Origin: an uncultured Flavobacteriaceae bacterium
GTDB lineage: Bacteria > Bacteroidota > Bacteroidia > Flavobacteriales > Flavobacteriaceae
Assembly: GCA_937959395.1 (NCBI GenBank)
Contig: CALGLR010000011.1
Span: 1 to 64,000, forward strand
Direction: 5' to 3'
DNA: 64,000 bases
The stretch's first letter is position 1. Each line of letters opens with the position of its first letter. Made by a program: the position numbers and the translations under genes. The notes beneath the pieces were generated by a model. It was given only the letters and a program-made list of their open reading frames with translations. It ran no database searches and was not told where the DNA came from. Of this stretch, positions 35,803 to 56,374 are shown piece after piece.

Positions 35803-37080
35803 ATGAATACGCCTTTAGCTGAACGTTTAAGACCAAAAACACTTGCAGACTATATTAGTCAGACTCACTTAGTTGGAGATAATGGATCTTTAACGAAACA
35901 AATTGCTCAAGGATTAATCCCTTCAATGCTATTTTGGGGACCACCAGGTATTGGAAAAACGACATTAGCAAATATCATTGCTGCAGAGTCTGGGCGCCCA
36001 TTTTATACTTTAAGTGCTATTAGTTCTGGCGTAAAAGATGTGAGAGAAGTTATTGAAAAAGCAAAACAAAGCGGAGGCTTATTTTCAACTAAAAATCCTA
36101 TATTATTTATTGATGAGATTCATCGTTTTAGTAAATCTCAACAAGACTCATTATTACAAGCTGTTGAAAAAGGATGGGTAACACTTATAGGAGCAACAAC
36201 TGAAAACCCTAGTTTTGAAGTCATACCTGCCTTATTATCTCGTTGCCAAGTCTACATATTAAAACCCTTTGATAAAAAGGACTTAGAAAGTCTTTTACAA
36301 CGTGCTATAAAAAAAGACGACTACCTTTCTAAAAAAACAATAAACCTAAAAGAAACTGAAGCTTTATTACGCCTTTCGGGAGGAGATGCAAGAAAACTCC
36401 TTAATATTTTTGAATTGATAGTAAACTCGGAAACGTCTGATACTATTACAATTACCAATGAAACTGTTTTAGATAAAGTTCAAAACAACACGGTACGTTA
36501 TGATAAAACAGGAGAACAACATTACGATATTGTTTCAGCTTTTATAAAATCGATTAGAGGCAGTGATCCTAATGCTGCTGTATATTATCTGGCTAGAATG
36601 GTTGAAGGTGGTGAGGATGTGAAATTTATTGCAAGACGCTTACTTATTTTAGCCAGTGAAGATATAGGAAATGCAAACCCAACAGCTCTAGTAATGGCTA
36701 ATACGACGTTTCAAGCTGTTGCAACGATTGGTTATCCAGAATCTCGAATTATATTAAGTCAATGTGCAACTTATTTAGCTTGCTCCCCTAAAAGTAATGC
36801 TGCATACGAAGCTATTGGTAAAGCTCAAAAACTAGTTAAAGAAACGGGAGATTTAAGTGTTCCGCTAGCCATTAGAAATGCACCAACCCAATTAATGAAA
36901 GAAATTGGTTATGGAGAAAACTATAAATACTCTCATAACTATGAAAACAATTTTGCTGAACAAGAATTTTTACCTTCAGAAATTAAAGGCACTAATTTAT
37001 ATAATCCAGGAAATAATCAAAGAGAAAATGCACAACGTGAGTTTTTAAAACAACGTTGGAAAGAGAAATATGGATATTAG
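35803..37080 (+). CDS. rarA: replication-associated recombination protein A (RarA/MgsA)
   Basis: A 425-residue AAA+ ATPase of the clamp-loader group. Walker A GPPGIGKT is at residues 46-53, Walker B LFIDEIH at about 101-107, and sensor 1 is in LIGATTENPSFEV. The C-terminal tetramerisation part is present (EDIGNANPTALVMANTTFQA and QLMKEIGYGENYKYSHNYEN), ending in the usual QRWKEKYGY. RarA acts at stalled replication forks. Its TAG stop codon is the first unit of the 7-bp repeat that follows. Confidence 0.95.
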   Translation: MNTPLAERLRPKTLADYISQTHLVGDNGSLTKQIAQGLIPSMLFWGPPGIGKTTLANIIAAESGRPFYTLSAISSGVKDVREVIEKAKQSGGLFSTKNPILFIDEIHRFSKSQQDSLLQAVEKGWVTLIGATTENPSFEVIPALLSRCQVYILKPFDKKDLESLLQRAIKKDDYLSKKTINLKETEALLRLSGGDARKLLNIFELIVNSETSDTITITNETVLDKVQNNTVRYDKTGEQHYDIVSAFIKSIRGSDPNAAVYYLARMVEGGEDVKFIARRLLILASEDIGNANPTALVMANTTFQAVATIGYPESRIILSQCATYLACSPKSNAAYEAIGKAQKLVKETGDLSVPLAIRNAPTQLMKEIGYGENYKYSHNYENNFAEQEFLPSEIKGTNLYNPGNNQRENAQREFLKQRWKEKYGY

Positions 37081-37123
37081 CCTTTAGCCTTTAGCCTTTA
37101 GCCTTTAGCCTTTAGCCTTTAGC
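37077..37123. repeat. 7-bp tandem repeat (TAGCCTT), short array
   Basis: Six full copies of TAGCCTT plus TAGC run from the TAG stop codon of rarA and fill the gap to the convergent gene downstream. The array ends CAAAATTAAAA, as does the long array at 44763-44892, and the phase relative to the stop codon is the same. It contains stops in every frame on both strands and no palindrome, so it is neither coding nor a terminator. Confidence 0.95.
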
Positions 37124-44321: not shown

Positions 44322-44765
44322 ATGAAATCGATATTTACTCCTGAAACACATCAAGAGGTTCTTAATCGCATTAAGAATCTTAACGAAAATTCGCAACCCA
44401 GTTGGGGGAAAATGACAGTAGGACAAATGGCGAACCATTGCCAACCGCCCTTAAATGTTATGCTTCAAAAACAAGATTATGGGTTAAAACCGAATTGGCT
44501 CGTAAAAACGTTCTTTAAAAAATCGATGTATAATGATAAACCATGGCGAAAAAACATGCCTACACCTAAGCGTTTTCAAGTTACAGAACAAAAAGATTTT
44601 AATGTAGAAAAAGAAGAGCTTGTTAATTTGCTTGAAGAACTACATAACCATAAAGATAAAACCAATTGGCAACCGCATCCTGTTTTTGGTGAGTTCACTA
44701 AAAATCAATGGGGGCAAATGCAATACAAGCATTTAAATCATCATTTATCACAATTTGGAGTGTAG
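44322..44765 (+). CDS. DUF1569 protein (DinB-like fold)
   Basis: A 147-residue protein with the DUF1569 pattern: SQPSWGKMTVGQMANHCQPP near residues 26-45, with the metal-type histidine, and HPVFGEFTKNQWGQMQYKHL followed by NHHLSQFGV at the end. Members share the DinB four-helix fold with likely metal binding; no reaction known. Its TAG stop codon is the first unit of the long 7-bp tandem repeat. Confidence 0.82.
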   Translation: MKSIFTPETHQEVLNRIKNLNENSQPSWGKMTVGQMANHCQPPLNVMLQKQDYGLKPNWLVKTFFKKSMYNDKPWRKNMPTPKRFQVTEQKDFNVEKEELVNLLEELHNHKDKTNWQPHPVFGEFTKNQWGQMQYKHLNHHLSQFGV

Positions 44766-44892
44766 CCTTTAGCCTTTAGCCTTTAGCCTTTAGCCTTTAG
44801 CCTTTAGCCTTTAGCCTTTAGCCTTTAGCCTTTAGCCTTTAGCCTTTAGCCTTTAGCCTTTAGCCTTTAGCCTTTAGCCTTTAGCCTTTAGC
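44763..44892. repeat. 7-bp tandem repeat (TAGCCTT), long array
   Basis: Eighteen perfect copies of TAGCCTT plus TAGC, 130 bp in total, with no sequence variation that I can see. It starts on the TAG stop codon of the DUF1569 gene and ends CAAAATTAAAA, exactly as the short array at 37077-37123 does. It lies 89 bp before the next start codon. There are stops in all frames on both strands. Copy number is likely to change by slippage. Confidence 0.97.
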
Positions 44893-49856: not shown

Positions 49857-52800
49857 ATGACCCGTTCACTTTTAGTACTAATGCTTATATTTTTCGCCAA
49901 CATAGCAGCTTCTCAAAATGATAATTATTCTAAATTATGGTCTGAAGTTGAGCAATTTGAAAACCAAGGCTTGCCTAAATCGGCTTTAAAAGTTGTTCAA
50001 ACTATAGAATCTAAGGCCAGAAGTGCAAACCATTCTTCACAAATAGTGAAAGTGCTACTCTTTAAAAGTAAGTTATCATTAACCCTAGAAGAAGATGCGC
50101 AACTTAAAATTATTACCGATTTTAAAACAGAAATAGATAAAAGCGCTACGCCTACAAAAAATCTTTTACAAAATGTATTGGCTAATTTATATTGGCAGTA
50201 CTTTCAACAAAACCGTTATAAATTTTACAACCGTACCAAAACAGAAAGTAAAGTTGATCCTAGCGATTTTAGAACTTGGGATTTACAAACACTTTTTAGC
50301 GAAATTCACACCTATTTTGATGCCTCATTGCAGAATGGTCTTATACTTCAAAAAACGTCTTTAGATCCATTCGATGTTATTATTAATAAAGGAGAAGGCT
50401 CTAAATTGTTTAGACCTACTTTATATGATTTCCTGAGTCACAATGCCTTAAATTTTTATGTAACGAAAGAATATAATATTACTAAACCCGCTTATAAATT
50501 TGAGATTAACGATACGAATTACCTTTCTAATGCCAAGGACTATTCTACTTTACAACTCATTTCAAAAGATACCGCGTCTTTAGAATTCAAAGCATTAAAG
50601 ATTTATCAAGACCTAATTGCTTTTCATTTAAAAGATAAAAACCCTATAGCACTAACCGATGTTAATATTCAGCGCTTAAAATTTGTTTATGAAAATGGAC
50701 GCTTTACTAATAAAGACAAGCTATTAGAAAACGCTTTTAAAACAGAAAGTGAAGCCTACGATTCAAATGAAGTTTCTGCACTTTATAATTTTGAATTAGC
50801 AACTTTATATACCACTCAAGGTAATAATTATAGCACTAAAAAAGATGCCGCGATACAATGGAAACTAAAAGAAGCAATAGCCTTGTGTGATCGGGCAATA
50901 ACCAAATTCCCAGAAAGTATTGGTGCAAAAAAATGCCAGCGCTTAAAATCTCAAATAGAAGCACCAAGTTTATCGATTCAGTCTGAAGCTTTTTTACCCA
51001 TTCAAAAAAAGGCAAAACTATTATTAACCTATAAAAATATAAACGCCCTCTCTTTTTCAATTTATAAACTCTCAAATGACGAATACCAAAATTTTATAAA
51101 AATTTATCGAGAAAATGAAAAAGAAGCGTTCATTGAAAAACTTTCAGTAGAAAAAAACTGGAAGACTACACTTAAAAATGAGAATGACTACCAACAACAT
51201 GCTTCAGAAATTTTGATTTCCGAATTATTGGGAGGACGTTACCTAATTACTGGTAAAAGTTTAGATTTAGATACAAATTTCTTTGCCTACACCACCATAC
51301 AAATCACAGATATAGCAGTAGTTGAATACAATAATGGTGAAAAAAAACAATTTCAGCTTATTAATAGAAATTCTGGTGAACCCATTGCTAATGCAAAAGT
51401 AAAATTACATTTTAAGTCTCGTAATAAAACAAATACAGAACAAAAAACCAGCGATTTAAAAGGTATTATAACCTTATCTAAGGTAAAAGAACGACACTAT
51501 AATTTATCCATGGAAGTTAATCATAAAAATGATACGGCTTATTTTGACAATTATTATTTAAGGAACTATTATTCAAACCAAGAAAAAACAAATAGCTATT
51601 ATAATTCGTTTTTATTCACAGATCGAAGTATATATAGGCCAGGGCAAACGCTTTATTTCAAAAGTATTTTAATGAAAACTGAAGACAATACGTCTCAAGT
51701 TATAGCTAATGAAAAGTGTGAGGTCATTTTATATAATACTAATGGAGAAACTATTAAGAATCAAACCTTTAAAACCAACGAATATGGTTCGATTCATGGT
51801 GAATTTATTTTGCCTAATGGCGGATTAATGGGAGACTATAGAATTGAATTAAAAGGAGAAGCCAATTACAGAAGCTCTTCTTATTTTTCTGTTGAAGAAT
51901 ATAAACGTCCAAAATTCGAAACAAAATTCAAACCAGTGACTGAAACCTATAAAATCAATGATGTCATTACTTTAAAAGGAGAAGCTCTAGCTTTTGCTGG
52001 AAGTAACATTACTGATGCCAAAGTTGTTTATCGTGTGACTCGCAAAGTAAATTATCCGCATTGGTATTATTGGTCTAGACCTAACTTTTTTAGTGAACCA
52101 CAAGAAATAGCACATGGCGAAACAGTAACTAATAATAAAGGTAGTTTCGAAATTGATTTTAAAGCCATTCCAGACCAAAGTGTTGATAAAAAAGGATTGC
52201 CAGTATTTAAATATGAAGTGACTGCAGATGTGACTGATATTAATGGAGAAACGAGAAGCGCAACTACTATTGTTAATGTGGGTTATCATGCATTAACGGC
52301 AAAGATTACCATAAATGAAACATTAGATAAAACAAAAAAAGATCATGAAATTGCTATAGGGACTAAAAATTTGAATGACGAATTTGTTCCAGCAACTGGC
52401 GTTATAAAAATATACAAACTAAAAGCACCAAAAACTGTTTTACGTAAACGGCCGTGGGCTGCTCCAGATTATCAAACCTATAGTGAAACTCAATTTAAAG
52501 CACATTTTCCGCACGATGCTTATAAAAACGAAGACCAACCTGAAAATTGGGAAAAAGGCGATCTTGTTTTTAATGAAACATTTGATACTAATAAATCGAA
52601 AACTTTAAAGTTAGGCACTATCAAAAAATGGTATTCTGGACGCTATATAGTCGTTCTTGAAGGCAAAGATCAATTTGGACAGTTAGTGAAAGATGAGGCA
52701 CAAACTACACTTTTTAAAGATGTGGAGCTATTTGATAATGAATTATTTACTATTAGGGCTTCGCAGGACAGTTACAAACCTGGTGATAATGCAGAATTAA

Positions 52801-55800
52801 CTTTAGGGTCTTCAGCTGAAACACTTTTTGTAACTGTAGTTGTTGAAAAAGATAATAAAGTGATCGACGAGCAAATCATAAAATTGAATAAAAACACGAA
52901 AAGCATCTCTGTTCCTGTAACAAAAGATGATGTTGGAGGTTTTGTAGTGCATTATAGTTTTTCAGCTTTTAATGGTTTTAATGGTGGCGCTTTACCTATT
53001 AATGTGCCTTACGAAAAAACCAATTTAGAAATAGAAACCTTAACTTTTAGAGATCGACTAAAACCAGGAACAGACGAGACTTGGACCTTTAAAATTAAAG
53101 GCCCAAAAAGCGATCAAGTTTCTGCTGAATTATTAGCTAGTATGTACGACGCGTCTTTAGATCAATTCAAACCGCATTCTTGGCAATTTAATCCTATACA
53201 AAAACCAATTTATAGAAGCAGAACTAATAGAGATGCGCAACGCAGTTTTTCAATTAATAGTTTTAGTGTACATCGTAAAAATCAAAATAACTATTACGAA
53301 CAGCCACAGCAATATGATCAGTTAAATTGGTTTGGTTTATATCTTGGTGGTGGGGGAAATTATGCAATGAAATCCAGAAGAAGAATGGGTGTTGGAATTG
53401 AAGCAGCTCCAATGTCGATTCAAGTTGTAGAAGATAATCTAGAACTGGAAGAAAGTGCAGTATCATCTAATGCTGCATACTATGGAGCAAGTTTAGCTGA
53501 TTCTAAAAATTCAAGTACTAATAAAGATGCTTTTGACGAAGAAGAAACAAATACTAATAAAAAAGAATCTAAATCTACAGCAGTACAAATTCGAAAAAAC
53601 CTTCAAGAAACAGCATTTTTCTTTCCACAATTGCAAACCGATAAAGACGGCACGGTTTCTTTTAGTTTTACAACACCAGAGGCCTTAACCAAATGGAACT
53701 TGCAATTATTAGCGCATACAAAGTCCTTAGAAAGCACTACAAAAAGTTTAGAAACGGTGACTCAAAAAGAATTGATGGTTATTCCAAATGCACCGCGTTT
53801 TTTACGTGAAGGCGATCAAATTAAAATAAGCACTAAAATTGCAAACCTTTCTAATAAAAATCTATCCGGTACGGCTACGCTTCAACTGTTTGATGCCTTA
53901 ACTGGTGAAGACATTAGTAAAAAATTACTATCAAGCTCAAATAATTCTCTCCCTCAGGGAGAGATACCAGAGGCAGAGAGAAAATTTAATGTTGATGCAA
54001 ATGGTAATACACAAGCTACTTGGCAGTTAACTATTCCGCAGAATATACAAGCCGTACAATATAAAATAATCGCAAAATCGAATACGTTTAGTGATGGTGA
54101 ACAAAATGCATTACCCGTATTAACGAATAGAATGTTAGTCACAGAAACGTTACCAATGTGGGTGAAAAGTAATGAAACACGAACGTTTACTTTAGATAAA
54201 TTAAAAAACCTTACTTCGGCTACGCTCAGCAACCAATCTGGCGCGCTCAGTAACCAGTCGGGCACGCTAAGTAATCATAAGTTAACTCTTGAGATTACTT
54301 CTAACCCTGCATGGTATGCCGTTCAGGCGCTTCCTTATTTAATGGAATATCCTCATGATTGTAACGAGCAAACATTCTCGCGCTATTATGCGAATGCTTT
54401 GGCAAGCCATATTGCAAATTCAAACCCTAGAATTCAAAATGTGTTTAACCAATGGGCCTCTCAAAATGCACTCGTTAGTAATTTAGAAAAAAACGAGGAA
54501 TTAAAATCTATCCTTATTCAAGAAACACCTTGGTTACGCGATGCACAAAGCGAAAGTGAACAAAAAAAACGTATTGCTTTACTGTTCGATTTAAATAAAA
54601 TGACCAACGAACTGGCGGCTGCAAATCGGAAACTAGTTAATAGTCAAATGTCATCAGGAGCCTGGTCTTGGTTTAATGGTGGTAGAGAGAATCGTTACAT
54701 TACACAGCATATTATTACTGGTTTTGGTCACTTAAATAAACTTAATGTAAAAACAGATCAAAATACCAAAATGATCGAAAAAGCGATTCGTTATTTAGAT
54801 AACCAATTCATAAAAGAGTATAAAGACATTACTAAATATGATGCAAAAACCGATTTAACTACAAACCATTTAAGTCATACCCAATTGCATTATTTGTATA
54901 TGCGAAGCTTTTTTCCGCAGATAAAAAAATCGAAAGAAGTCAATGAGATTATTACTTATTATCATACACAAATTAAAAAGTATTGGTTGTCTCGCTCTTT
55001 ATATGCTAAAGGGATGATGACTTTAATTACACGTCGCTTAAATGATAATACTACCGCTTCTAAAATATTAAGGTCGTTAAAAGAAACAAGTATTACTTCA
55101 GAAGAACTAGGAATGTACTGGAAAGAAAACGCCAATTCATGGTATTGGTATCAGGCGCCAATAGAAACGCAATCGCTTTTAATTGAAGCATTTTCTGAAA
55201 TTCAAAAGGACACAAACACTATAGATAATCTTAAAATTTGGCTGCTTAAAAACAAGCAAACCAATCGCTGGAAAACAACAAAAGCAACTACAGATGCTGT
55301 TTACGCTTTATTACTTCAAGGTAGCGATTGGCTAAGCGTTACAGATGCTGTTGATGTGACTATTGGTAATAAAACTATAGAACCTAAAAAATTAGAAGCC
55401 GTAAAAGTTGAAGCTGGTACTGGTTATTATAAAACGTCATGGAATACTTCAGAAATTAAACCAGAAATGGCTAGTGTAGAAATTACTAAAAAAGGAAAAG
55501 GTATTGCTTGGGGTGGTTTATATTGGCAATATTTTGAAGATCTAGATAAGATTACTTCAGCGGAAACACCTTTAAAATTAAAGAAACAGTTGTTTTTAAA
55601 ATCCAATACAGATAAAGGAGAAGAAATTACTCCTATTACAGAGAATACAGCTTTAAAAGTGGGCGATTTAGTTCGCGTTCGTATAGAATTACGTAATGAT
55701 AGAGTTATGGAATTTGTGCACATGAAAGATATGCGTGCTGCCGGATTAGAACCTATAAATGTATTGTCTCAATATAAATGGCAAGATGGTTTAGGGTATT

Positions 55801-55988
55801 ATGAAAGTACTAAAGACGCTGCTACAAACTTCTTTTTTGATTATTTACCAAAAGGTGTTTTTGTATTCGAGTATGATTTAAGAGTTAATAATGCTGGAAA
55901 TATGAGTAATGGTATTACGACGATTCAAAGTATGTATGCTCCAGAATTTAGTAGCCATAGTGAAGGGATTAGAATTAAAGTAGACTAA
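49857..55988 (+). CDS. alpha-2-macroglobulin family protein
   Basis: A 2,043-residue secreted protein with a signal peptide (1-19, ending IAASQ) and no lipobox. Macroglobulin (MG) domains fill the first 1,100 residues (TDRSIYRPGQTLYFKSILMK is the typical MG start). The A2M domain follows (FFFPQLQTDKDGTVSFSFTT) and then an alpha-alpha toroid with the thioester motif Cys1502-Asn-Glu-Gln1505. Bacterial members trap proteases in the periplasm or at the surface. The motif reads CNEQ, not the common CGEQ or CLEQ, but both thioester residues are present. No pbpC gene is nearby. Two low-complexity parts near residues 1364-1375 and 1456-1475 look like in-frame repeat DNA. Confidence 0.92.
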   Translation: MTRSLLVLMLIFFANIAASQNDNYSKLWSEVEQFENQGLPKSALKVVQTIESKARSANHSSQIVKVLLFKSKLSLTLEEDAQLKIITDFKTEIDKSATPTKNLLQNVLANLYWQYFQQNRYKFYNRTKTESKVDPSDFRTWDLQTLFSEIHTYFDASLQNGLILQKTSLDPFDVIINKGEGSKLFRPTLYDFLSHNALNFYVTKEYNITKPAYKFEINDTNYLSNAKDYSTLQLISKDTASLEFKALKIYQDLIAFHLKDKNPIALTDVNIQRLKFVYENGRFTNKDKLLENAFKTESEAYDSNEVSALYNFELATLYTTQGNNYSTKKDAAIQWKLKEAIALCDRAITKFPESIGAKKCQRLKSQIEAPSLSIQSEAFLPIQKKAKLLLTYKNINALSFSIYKLSNDEYQNFIKIYRENEKEAFIEKLSVEKNWKTTLKNENDYQQHASEILISELLGGRYLITGKSLDLDTNFFAYTTIQITDIAVVEYNNGEKKQFQLINRNSGEPIANAKVKLHFKSRNKTNTEQKTSDLKGIITLSKVKERHYNLSMEVNHKNDTAYFDNYYLRNYYSNQEKTNSYYNSFLFTDRSIYRPGQTLYFKSILMKTEDNTSQVIANEKCEVILYNTNGETIKNQTFKTNEYGSIHGEFILPNGGLMGDYRIELKGEANYRSSSYFSVEEYKRPKFETKFKPVTETYKINDVITLKGEALAFAGSNITDAKVVYRVTRKVNYPHWYYWSRPNFFSEPQEIAHGETVTNNKGSFEIDFKAIPDQSVDKKGLPVFKYEVTADVTDINGETRSATTIVNVGYHALTAKITINETLDKTKKDHEIAIGTKNLNDEFVPATGVIKIYKLKAPKTVLRKRPWAAPDYQTYSETQFKAHFPHDAYKNEDQPENWEKGDLVFNETFDTNKSKTLKLGTIKKWYSGRYIVVLEGKDQFGQLVKDEAQTTLFKDVELFDNELFTIRASQDSYKPGDNAELTLGSSAETLFVTVVVEKDNKVIDEQIIKLNKNTKSISVPVTKDDVGGFVVHYSFSAFNGFNGGALPINVPYEKTNLEIETLTFRDRLKPGTDETWTFKIKGPKSDQVSAELLASMYDASLDQFKPHSWQFNPIQKPIYRSRTNRDAQRSFSINSFSVHRKNQNNYYEQPQQYDQLNWFGLYLGGGGNYAMKSRRRMGVGIEAAPMSIQVVEDNLELEESAVSSNAAYYGASLADSKNSSTNKDAFDEEETNTNKKESKSTAVQIRKNLQETAFFFPQLQTDKDGTVSFSFTTPEALTKWNLQLLAHTKSLESTTKSLETVTQKELMVIPNAPRFLREGDQIKISTKIANLSNKNLSGTATLQLFDALTGEDISKKLLSSSNNSLPQGEIPEAERKFNVDANGNTQATWQLTIPQNIQAVQYKIIAKSNTFSDGEQNALPVLTNRMLVTETLPMWVKSNETRTFTLDKLKNLTSATLSNQSGALSNQSGTLSNHKLTLEITSNPAWYAVQALPYLMEYPHDCNEQTFSRYYANALASHIANSNPRIQNVFNQWASQNALVSNLEKNEELKSILIQETPWLRDAQSESEQKKRIALLFDLNKMTNELAAANRKLVNSQMSSGAWSWFNGGRENRYITQHIITGFGHLNKLNVKTDQNTKMIEKAIRYLDNQFIKEYKDITKYDAKTDLTTNHLSHTQLHYLYMRSFFPQIKKSKEVNEIITYYHTQIKKYWLSRSLYAKGMMTLITRRLNDNTTASKILRSLKETSITSEELGMYWKENANSWYWYQAPIETQSLLIEAFSEIQKDTNTIDNLKIWLLKNKQTNRWKTTKATTDAVYALLLQGSDWLSVTDAVDVTIGNKTIEPKKLEAVKVEAGTGYYKTSWNTSEIKPEMASVEITKKGKGIAWGGLYWQYFEDLDKITSAETPLKLKKQLFLKSNTDKGEEITPITENTALKVGDLVRVRIELRNDRVMEFVHMKDMRAAGLEPINVLSQYKWQDGLGYYESTKDAATNFFFDYLPKGVFVFEYDLRVNNAGNMSNGITTIQSMYAPEFSSHSEGIRIKVD
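53946..53964. repeat. palindrome inside the alpha-2-macroglobulin gene
   Basis: TCTCTCCC (53946-53953) and GGGAGAGA (53957-53964) form a perfect 8-bp stem with a 3-nt loop. It is followed by CCAGAGGCAGAGAG. This is unlike the AT-rich coding sequence around it and like intergenic palindromes of Bacteroidota; it is read in frame as SLPQGEIPEAER, a stretch that lies between two domains. Confidence 0.6.
54213..54278 (+). repeat. 21-bp in-frame tandem repeat in the alpha-2-macroglobulin gene
   Basis: About 2.7 copies of a 21-bp unit encode LSNQSGA-LSNQSGT-LSNH. The DNA begins ACTTCGGCTACGCTCAG, close to ACTTCGACTTCGCTCAG at 56270-56286, a non-coding repeat in the gap downstream. So the tandem seems to come from the same kind of repeat. 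The GC content is higher than around it. Confidence 0.7.
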
Positions 55989-56188: not shown

Positions 56189-56374
56189 ATACCATTTCTC
56201 ATTTGAAATAACCGTAATAAAACGTTCTTTTTTACTTTCTATTTTATTAAAAAAAGAAAACGTAACTATACTTCGACTTCGCTCAGTACAGGTTGCTACC
56301 TCTTATTTTTGTAATTCATATAAAGAAAAAAATAAGTGGTTTCTTTTACAATAATTTCAAACAAGAATTGGTAT
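56189..56374. repeat. palindromic MITE-like element, copy D, with insert
   Basis: A 186-bp element with imperfect terminal inverted repeats (starting ATACCATTTCT at 56189 and ending AGAATTGGTAT at 56374; about 22 of 28 positions pair). Its centre reads CGTAACTAT, then 24 bp starting ACTTCGACTTCGCTCAG (56270-56293), then TGCTACCTCTTATTTTTG, then TTCATATAAAG. Without those 24 bp it aligns with copy C, so they form an insertion or replacement. Confidence 0.7.

Follow-up and report, generated by a model that had tools for sequence, protein, structure and literature searches.

Short palindromic repeats read in frame in loops of an alpha-2-macroglobulin-like gene and other genes of Flavobacteriaceae, and their association with endonuclease genes

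Why does an alpha-2-macroglobulin (A2M)-like gene carry, within its reading frame, DNA that looks like an intergenic repeat? The question arises in the window analysed here, a stretch of 64,000 nucleotides from an uncultured Flavobacteriaceae bacterium, where the forward-strand gene at 49857-55988 holds a 2043-aa ORF with MG2, a bait-region domain, A2M, a CxEQ thioester motif and bMG10. An initial annotation had noticed a palindrome and a 21-bp tandem repeat in this gene, took both for repeat DNA, likened them to the in-frame palindromic elements of Rickettsia, and knew of no such report from Bacteroidota. We find that in-frame insertion is well supported and, beyond what had been noticed, that other genes are affected, that the A2M gene has three hotspots, and that endonuclease genes accompany the repeats. 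Our main reading, which we hold with a probability of roughly 0.78, is that the two segments (sites A and B) arose when short palindromic repeats were copied into surface loops without disturbing the frame; such repeats were probably spread with the help of nucleases and survived where the loop tolerated them.

Both features were found on the forward strand where they had been described. The palindrome TCTCTCCCTCAGGGAGAGA lies exactly at 53946-53964, in frame in the A2M ORF, and is followed by TACCAGAGGCAGAGAG in the site A insert (53946-53980), which encodes the peptide SLPQGEIPEAER and belongs to a family of pyrimidine-arm palindromes linked to DUF559. The site B insert (54213-54274) starts with ACTTCGGCTACGCTCAG at 54213, contains a copy of the repeat CTTCGNCTNCGCTCAG (54214-54229) as well as tandem units with a period of 21 bp (54222-54274; 2.5 copies as measured, 2.7 as first reported), and encodes TSATLSNQSGALSNQSGTLSN. 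None of 200 dinucleotide shuffles of the A2M gene produced a perfect palindrome with arms of at least 9, and genome-wide pattern searches returned 76 copies of CTTCGNCTNCGCTCAG versus none of the reversed pattern; we therefore set chance aside for both the palindrome and the site B repeat. The same repeat occurs in 33 of 37 genomes of the family, with the reversed control at zero in all 37. The view that both segments are repeat DNA was supported, with one reservation for site A, whose palindrome is present as a single copy in this genome at up to 2 mismatches and whose repeat nature follows from the inserts that relatives carry at the same site and from its family around DUF559 genes. Strict pyrimidine-arm patterns are low-copy throughout (0-3 per genome).

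Mapped on a predicted structure, as had been proposed, both inserts fall in low-confidence segments. The fold predicted for the fragment encoded by 53598-55244 (mean pLDDT 66) resembles the complement C3/C4/C5 family, with site A in a loop between strands (fragment residues 115-123) and site B within the segment 176-238. A third hotspot, site C (54745-54805, forward strand), is a predicted turn between helices 366-381 and 387-414, and is empty in the window gene while carrying repeats in 13 of 89 scored orthologues. Downstream of the A2M gene lies an intergenic copy, CTTCGACTTCGCTCAG (56271-56286, forward strand); the flank of this intergenic repeat (56230-56360) recurs on other contigs at L014, L017 and L019, the first two of which share its longer flank, and the repeat seems to belong to a longer dispersed element.

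The alignment of orthologues, suggested as a way to see whether the segments are missing elsewhere, revealed empty sites. A congener (G001) is without either insert and has the short loops DLSNTNNDKTFKV and KLKTNNSPTLKHHKLTLE; relative to it, the window gene is longer by 33 nt at site A and by 42 nt at site B. No recognised repeat was present at site B in 81 of 89 orthologues, and filled loops, which in other genera had received several repeat families, differed from one another, holding TCTCTCCCTTCGGGAGAGATGCC-type palindromes, CTCCCCCTTCGGGGGAGCTAGAGGGGGC, GTCAGGTCGAGCGCAGTCGAGACC, GTGTCTGAGGCTCTCGAAGACACC or ACTTCGACTCCGCTCAGTGACC (either orientation). The outcome expected of ordinary protein sequence, namely the same peptides encoded by different DNA in all orthologues, was thus not what we found. 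Across 108 A2M genes, 38 of 43 matches to GCTCAG/GCTCGAC-type repeats clustered in three intervals of less than 100 bp each, which cover ~4% of the examined span and were drawn after the matches had been seen, so that a binomial figure overstates the significance; the intragenic pyrimidine-arm palindromes were all but one at site A. On a quick tree calculated without the insert columns, which cannot distinguish gains from losses, parsimony requires 8 changes for the 8 carriers at site B and 23 for site A. Apparent independent gains could also result from recombination between A2M alleles. In the A2M genes at L054 and L072, the frame also runs through another palindrome, (A)TCCCGATAGCTATCGGGA(T), downstream of site C.

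Other ORFs of this genome also contain the site B repeat. In-frame copies were found in PolA (two), LeuRS, Mfd, TopB (two), Tex, ArgRS, GluRS, MnmE, 3-hydroxyacyl-CoA dehydrogenase and LpxH, with gene names confirmed by NCBIfam except for Tex, which was named from its sequence. Alignments with up to 12 relatives showed empty sites for PolA, LeuRS, Mfd, TopB, Tex, GluRS and MnmE; the copies in LpxH, ArgRS and 3-hydroxyacyl-CoA dehydrogenase (L166, L016 and L012) are candidate insertions, LpxH having no orthologue match among the 12 relatives searched. The majority of the repeat-carrying genes belong to DNA or tRNA metabolism, and in-gene copies read mostly as TSTxLS or xPSGExxG. A repeat preceding a HemW-like ORF (L184) may be untranslated. 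A loop in the editing domain of LeuRS forms a second hotspot, empty in 4 genomes and filled in 6 others with at least 4 repeat arrangements. One LeuRS (L232) has yet another type of repeat, CGTCATTGCGAGCGAAGCGAAGCAATC, in frame in this loop, and similar peptides (VIASETSQS) stand in frame in the same loops of Mfd at L250, L252 and L254.

In one relative, the LeuRS loop contains a DUF559 domain. Genome searches for partner enzymes covered GIY-YIG and DUF559, and yielded 25 DUF559 matches in 13 genomes, 7 of them in frame within large ORFs of several genera (LeuRS in 3 genomes, MetH in 2, IleRS and RecG); for both nucleases the frequencies are not representative, because the genomes were picked for inserts or many repeats. 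These in-gene domains are bordered by translated palindromes, for example CCCCAAAGGGG and CCCCCTTCGGGGGTTAGGGGG, and the right end in RecG, TCTCCCCTCCGGGGAGATTAGAGGGGCTTCC, is closely similar to the site A inserts of A2M. We observed a pairing of repeat type and nuclease: pyrimidine-arm palindromes accompany 18 of 19 DUF559 loci versus 1 of 29 GIY-YIG loci, whereas CTTCGNCTNCGCTCAG-type repeats were found at 10 of 29 GIY-YIG loci (within 350 bp) versus 1 of 19 DUF559 loci, the GIY-YIG loci having been set by fixed coordinates, with a strict regular expression missing most of them. The density of pyrimidine-arm stems within 350 bp of DUF559 is 10 times that of the outer parts of these loci, and CTTCGNCTNCGCTCAG-type repeats reach a density of 0.90 per kb near the GIY-YIG domain but are absent from the outer parts of the GIY-YIG loci. 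In four genomes (L295, L296, L300, L316), GIY-YIG and a GHMP kinase of the GYDIA family form one reading frame, joined by a repeat-encoded linker. A weakly supported branch (57/85) has all seven in-gene DUF559 domains on one side, and within one genome the copies in IleRS and RecG are sisters (92/89), a pattern that movement of the element between host genes would produce. The host proteins likely stay functional, judging from a genome (G136) in which the one LeuRS gene found in our search carries the DUF559 insert, and from the single-contig genome with inserts in IleRS and RecG (G250), for which an assembly artefact is therefore unlikely.

From this association, we suggest that the partner endonucleases probably spread the repeats. 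The endonuclease would cut or nick DNA, and repair would copy the element, or just its palindromic end, to another place. As several reading frames of the palindromes stay open, a copy could survive as a linker peptide if its phase was right and the loop tolerant; other copies within genes would be lost. Site B probably grew further by slippage once the insert was in place. Such a mechanism would resemble that of REP repeats and their RAYT transposases, with the difference that the partners would be nucleases and that translation is tolerated.

The likeness to REPs also provides the strongest competing account, to which we assign a minor yet real share of the probability: the repeats could be REPs mobilised by RAYT or IS200 enzymes, or IS-derived MITEs, with GIY-YIG and DUF559 being passengers or sharing the same preference for permissive sites. 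REPs with RAYT are a known precedent, and intragenic REPs are described in DNA-repair and tRNA synthetase genes (PMC3733652). That only about one third of the GIY-YIG loci carry the repeat nearby counts against our main reading. A passenger role fits poorly with the pairing of repeat type and nuclease family, with repeat ends that lie directly on both sides of the nuclease gene, and with DUF559 and its ends having entered 4 kinds of host gene together, as one unit. Distinctly less probable is that these sites are ordinary fast-evolving linkers that grew by slippage or tandem duplication of native codons, in the absence of any mobile DNA. Site B does contain 21-bp tandem units, empty orthologues have NTSTTLKHH, close to the peptide of the repeat (the native TSTTL resembles TSTxLS), and some long A2M inserts match no known repeat. 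Against this, site B shares 14 fixed bases identically with the 76-copy repeat, the same DNA stands in MnmE, TopB and other unrelated genes, and the same place in A2M is occupied by palindromes and by copies in other frames, including one orthologue with the site B repeat read in another frame (L068) and one with the repeat in both orientations (L131), which led us to set slippage aside as the origin of the inserts. The least probable account takes the in-gene DUF559 domains for inteins or introns that are spliced out, with the short inserts as their scars. It draws on the homing-endonuclease fold of DUF559 and on the continuous reading frame through it, but was set aside because a Pfam scan found no Hint/intein domain in the host ORFs, no group I/II intron was detected by Rfam in six in-gene DUF559 loci, and the element (~150 aa) is nearly all DUF559.

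The predicted fold of the in-gene DUF559 domain (pLDDT 82) resembles that of the homing endonuclease I-Bth0305I (PDB 3r3p), with a DUF559/Vsr-like fold, which was its second-best PDB match (TM-score 0.78-0.80 on target). The acidic residues E35, D63, E74 and D76 are invariant, such that DUF559 presents both the predicted fold and the conserved acidic residues of a homing endonuclease. I-Bth0305I is intron-encoded, whereas the domain here remains part of the host ORF and is translated along with its palindromic ends, no splicing element having been found. We regard the odds as evenly balanced that a homing-type endonuclease (DUF559, perhaps also GIY-YIG) with translatable palindromic ends constitutes a mobile element that enters essential genes in frame, is removed from neither RNA nor protein, and seeds short palindromic copies as new loops in many host proteins.

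Rickettsia is the best-known source of in-frame palindromic repeats, and the repeats described here are translated and comparable to the Rickettsia palindromic elements (RPEs). These are dispersed palindromic repeats that stand in frame in conserved genes, with host proteins that apparently remain functional (Ogata et al. 2000/2002, as summarised in PMC10969869). The likeness noted at the outset holds for the in-frame placement, the loops and the bias to information-processing genes. Many genomic copies were found for site B as opposed to the single-copy palindrome of site A, and in-frame insertion in conserved genes with empty orthologue sites was observed; the inserts of 33 and 42 nt lack the ~150 bp and the conserved peptide of RPEs, and we do not assign them to that class. 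According to the same source, RPEs are ~150 bp long with conserved peptides, whereas the units here measure ~20-40 bp and frequently form tandem or mixed arrays, with several unrelated families per loop, occurrence in Flavobacteriaceae, endonuclease partners and whole in-frame endonuclease elements. Within the literature covered, no mobiliser of RPEs is identified.

A second comparison is with the intragenic GTAG/CGTC REPs of RAYT systems, short and mostly intergenic palindromes of which some are read in frame, with a bias to DNA and tRNA metabolism genes that the present repeats share, including DNA-repair and tRNA synthetase hosts (PMC3733652, 2013). The partners here are GIY-YIG and DUF559 instead, and recurrence at the same site, given there for one case, recB of two Xanthomonas species, is common in A2M and LeuRS. 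The same paper lists CGTC repeats in Bacteroidetes, and no flavobacterial intragenic case is named in the text consulted. Our literature search, which had most subscription journals outside its reach, likewise found no report of in-frame palindromic repeats from Bacteroidota and none that links DUF559 or GIY-YIG to palindromic repeats. As Flavobacteriaceae are free-living and offer hundreds of genomes and many strains in culture, along with hotspots that recur and candidate enzymes, the origin and mobility of the repeats and their effect on host proteins are testable in this family. New protein loops can originate from non-coding repeats, and, as a caution, repeat-derived peptides should not be taken for conserved protein features.

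Elsewhere in the window, two perfect heptamer arrays, TTAGCCT (6.7 copies, 37077-37123) and TAGCCTT (18.6 copies, 44763-44892), are possibly phase-variable or structural.
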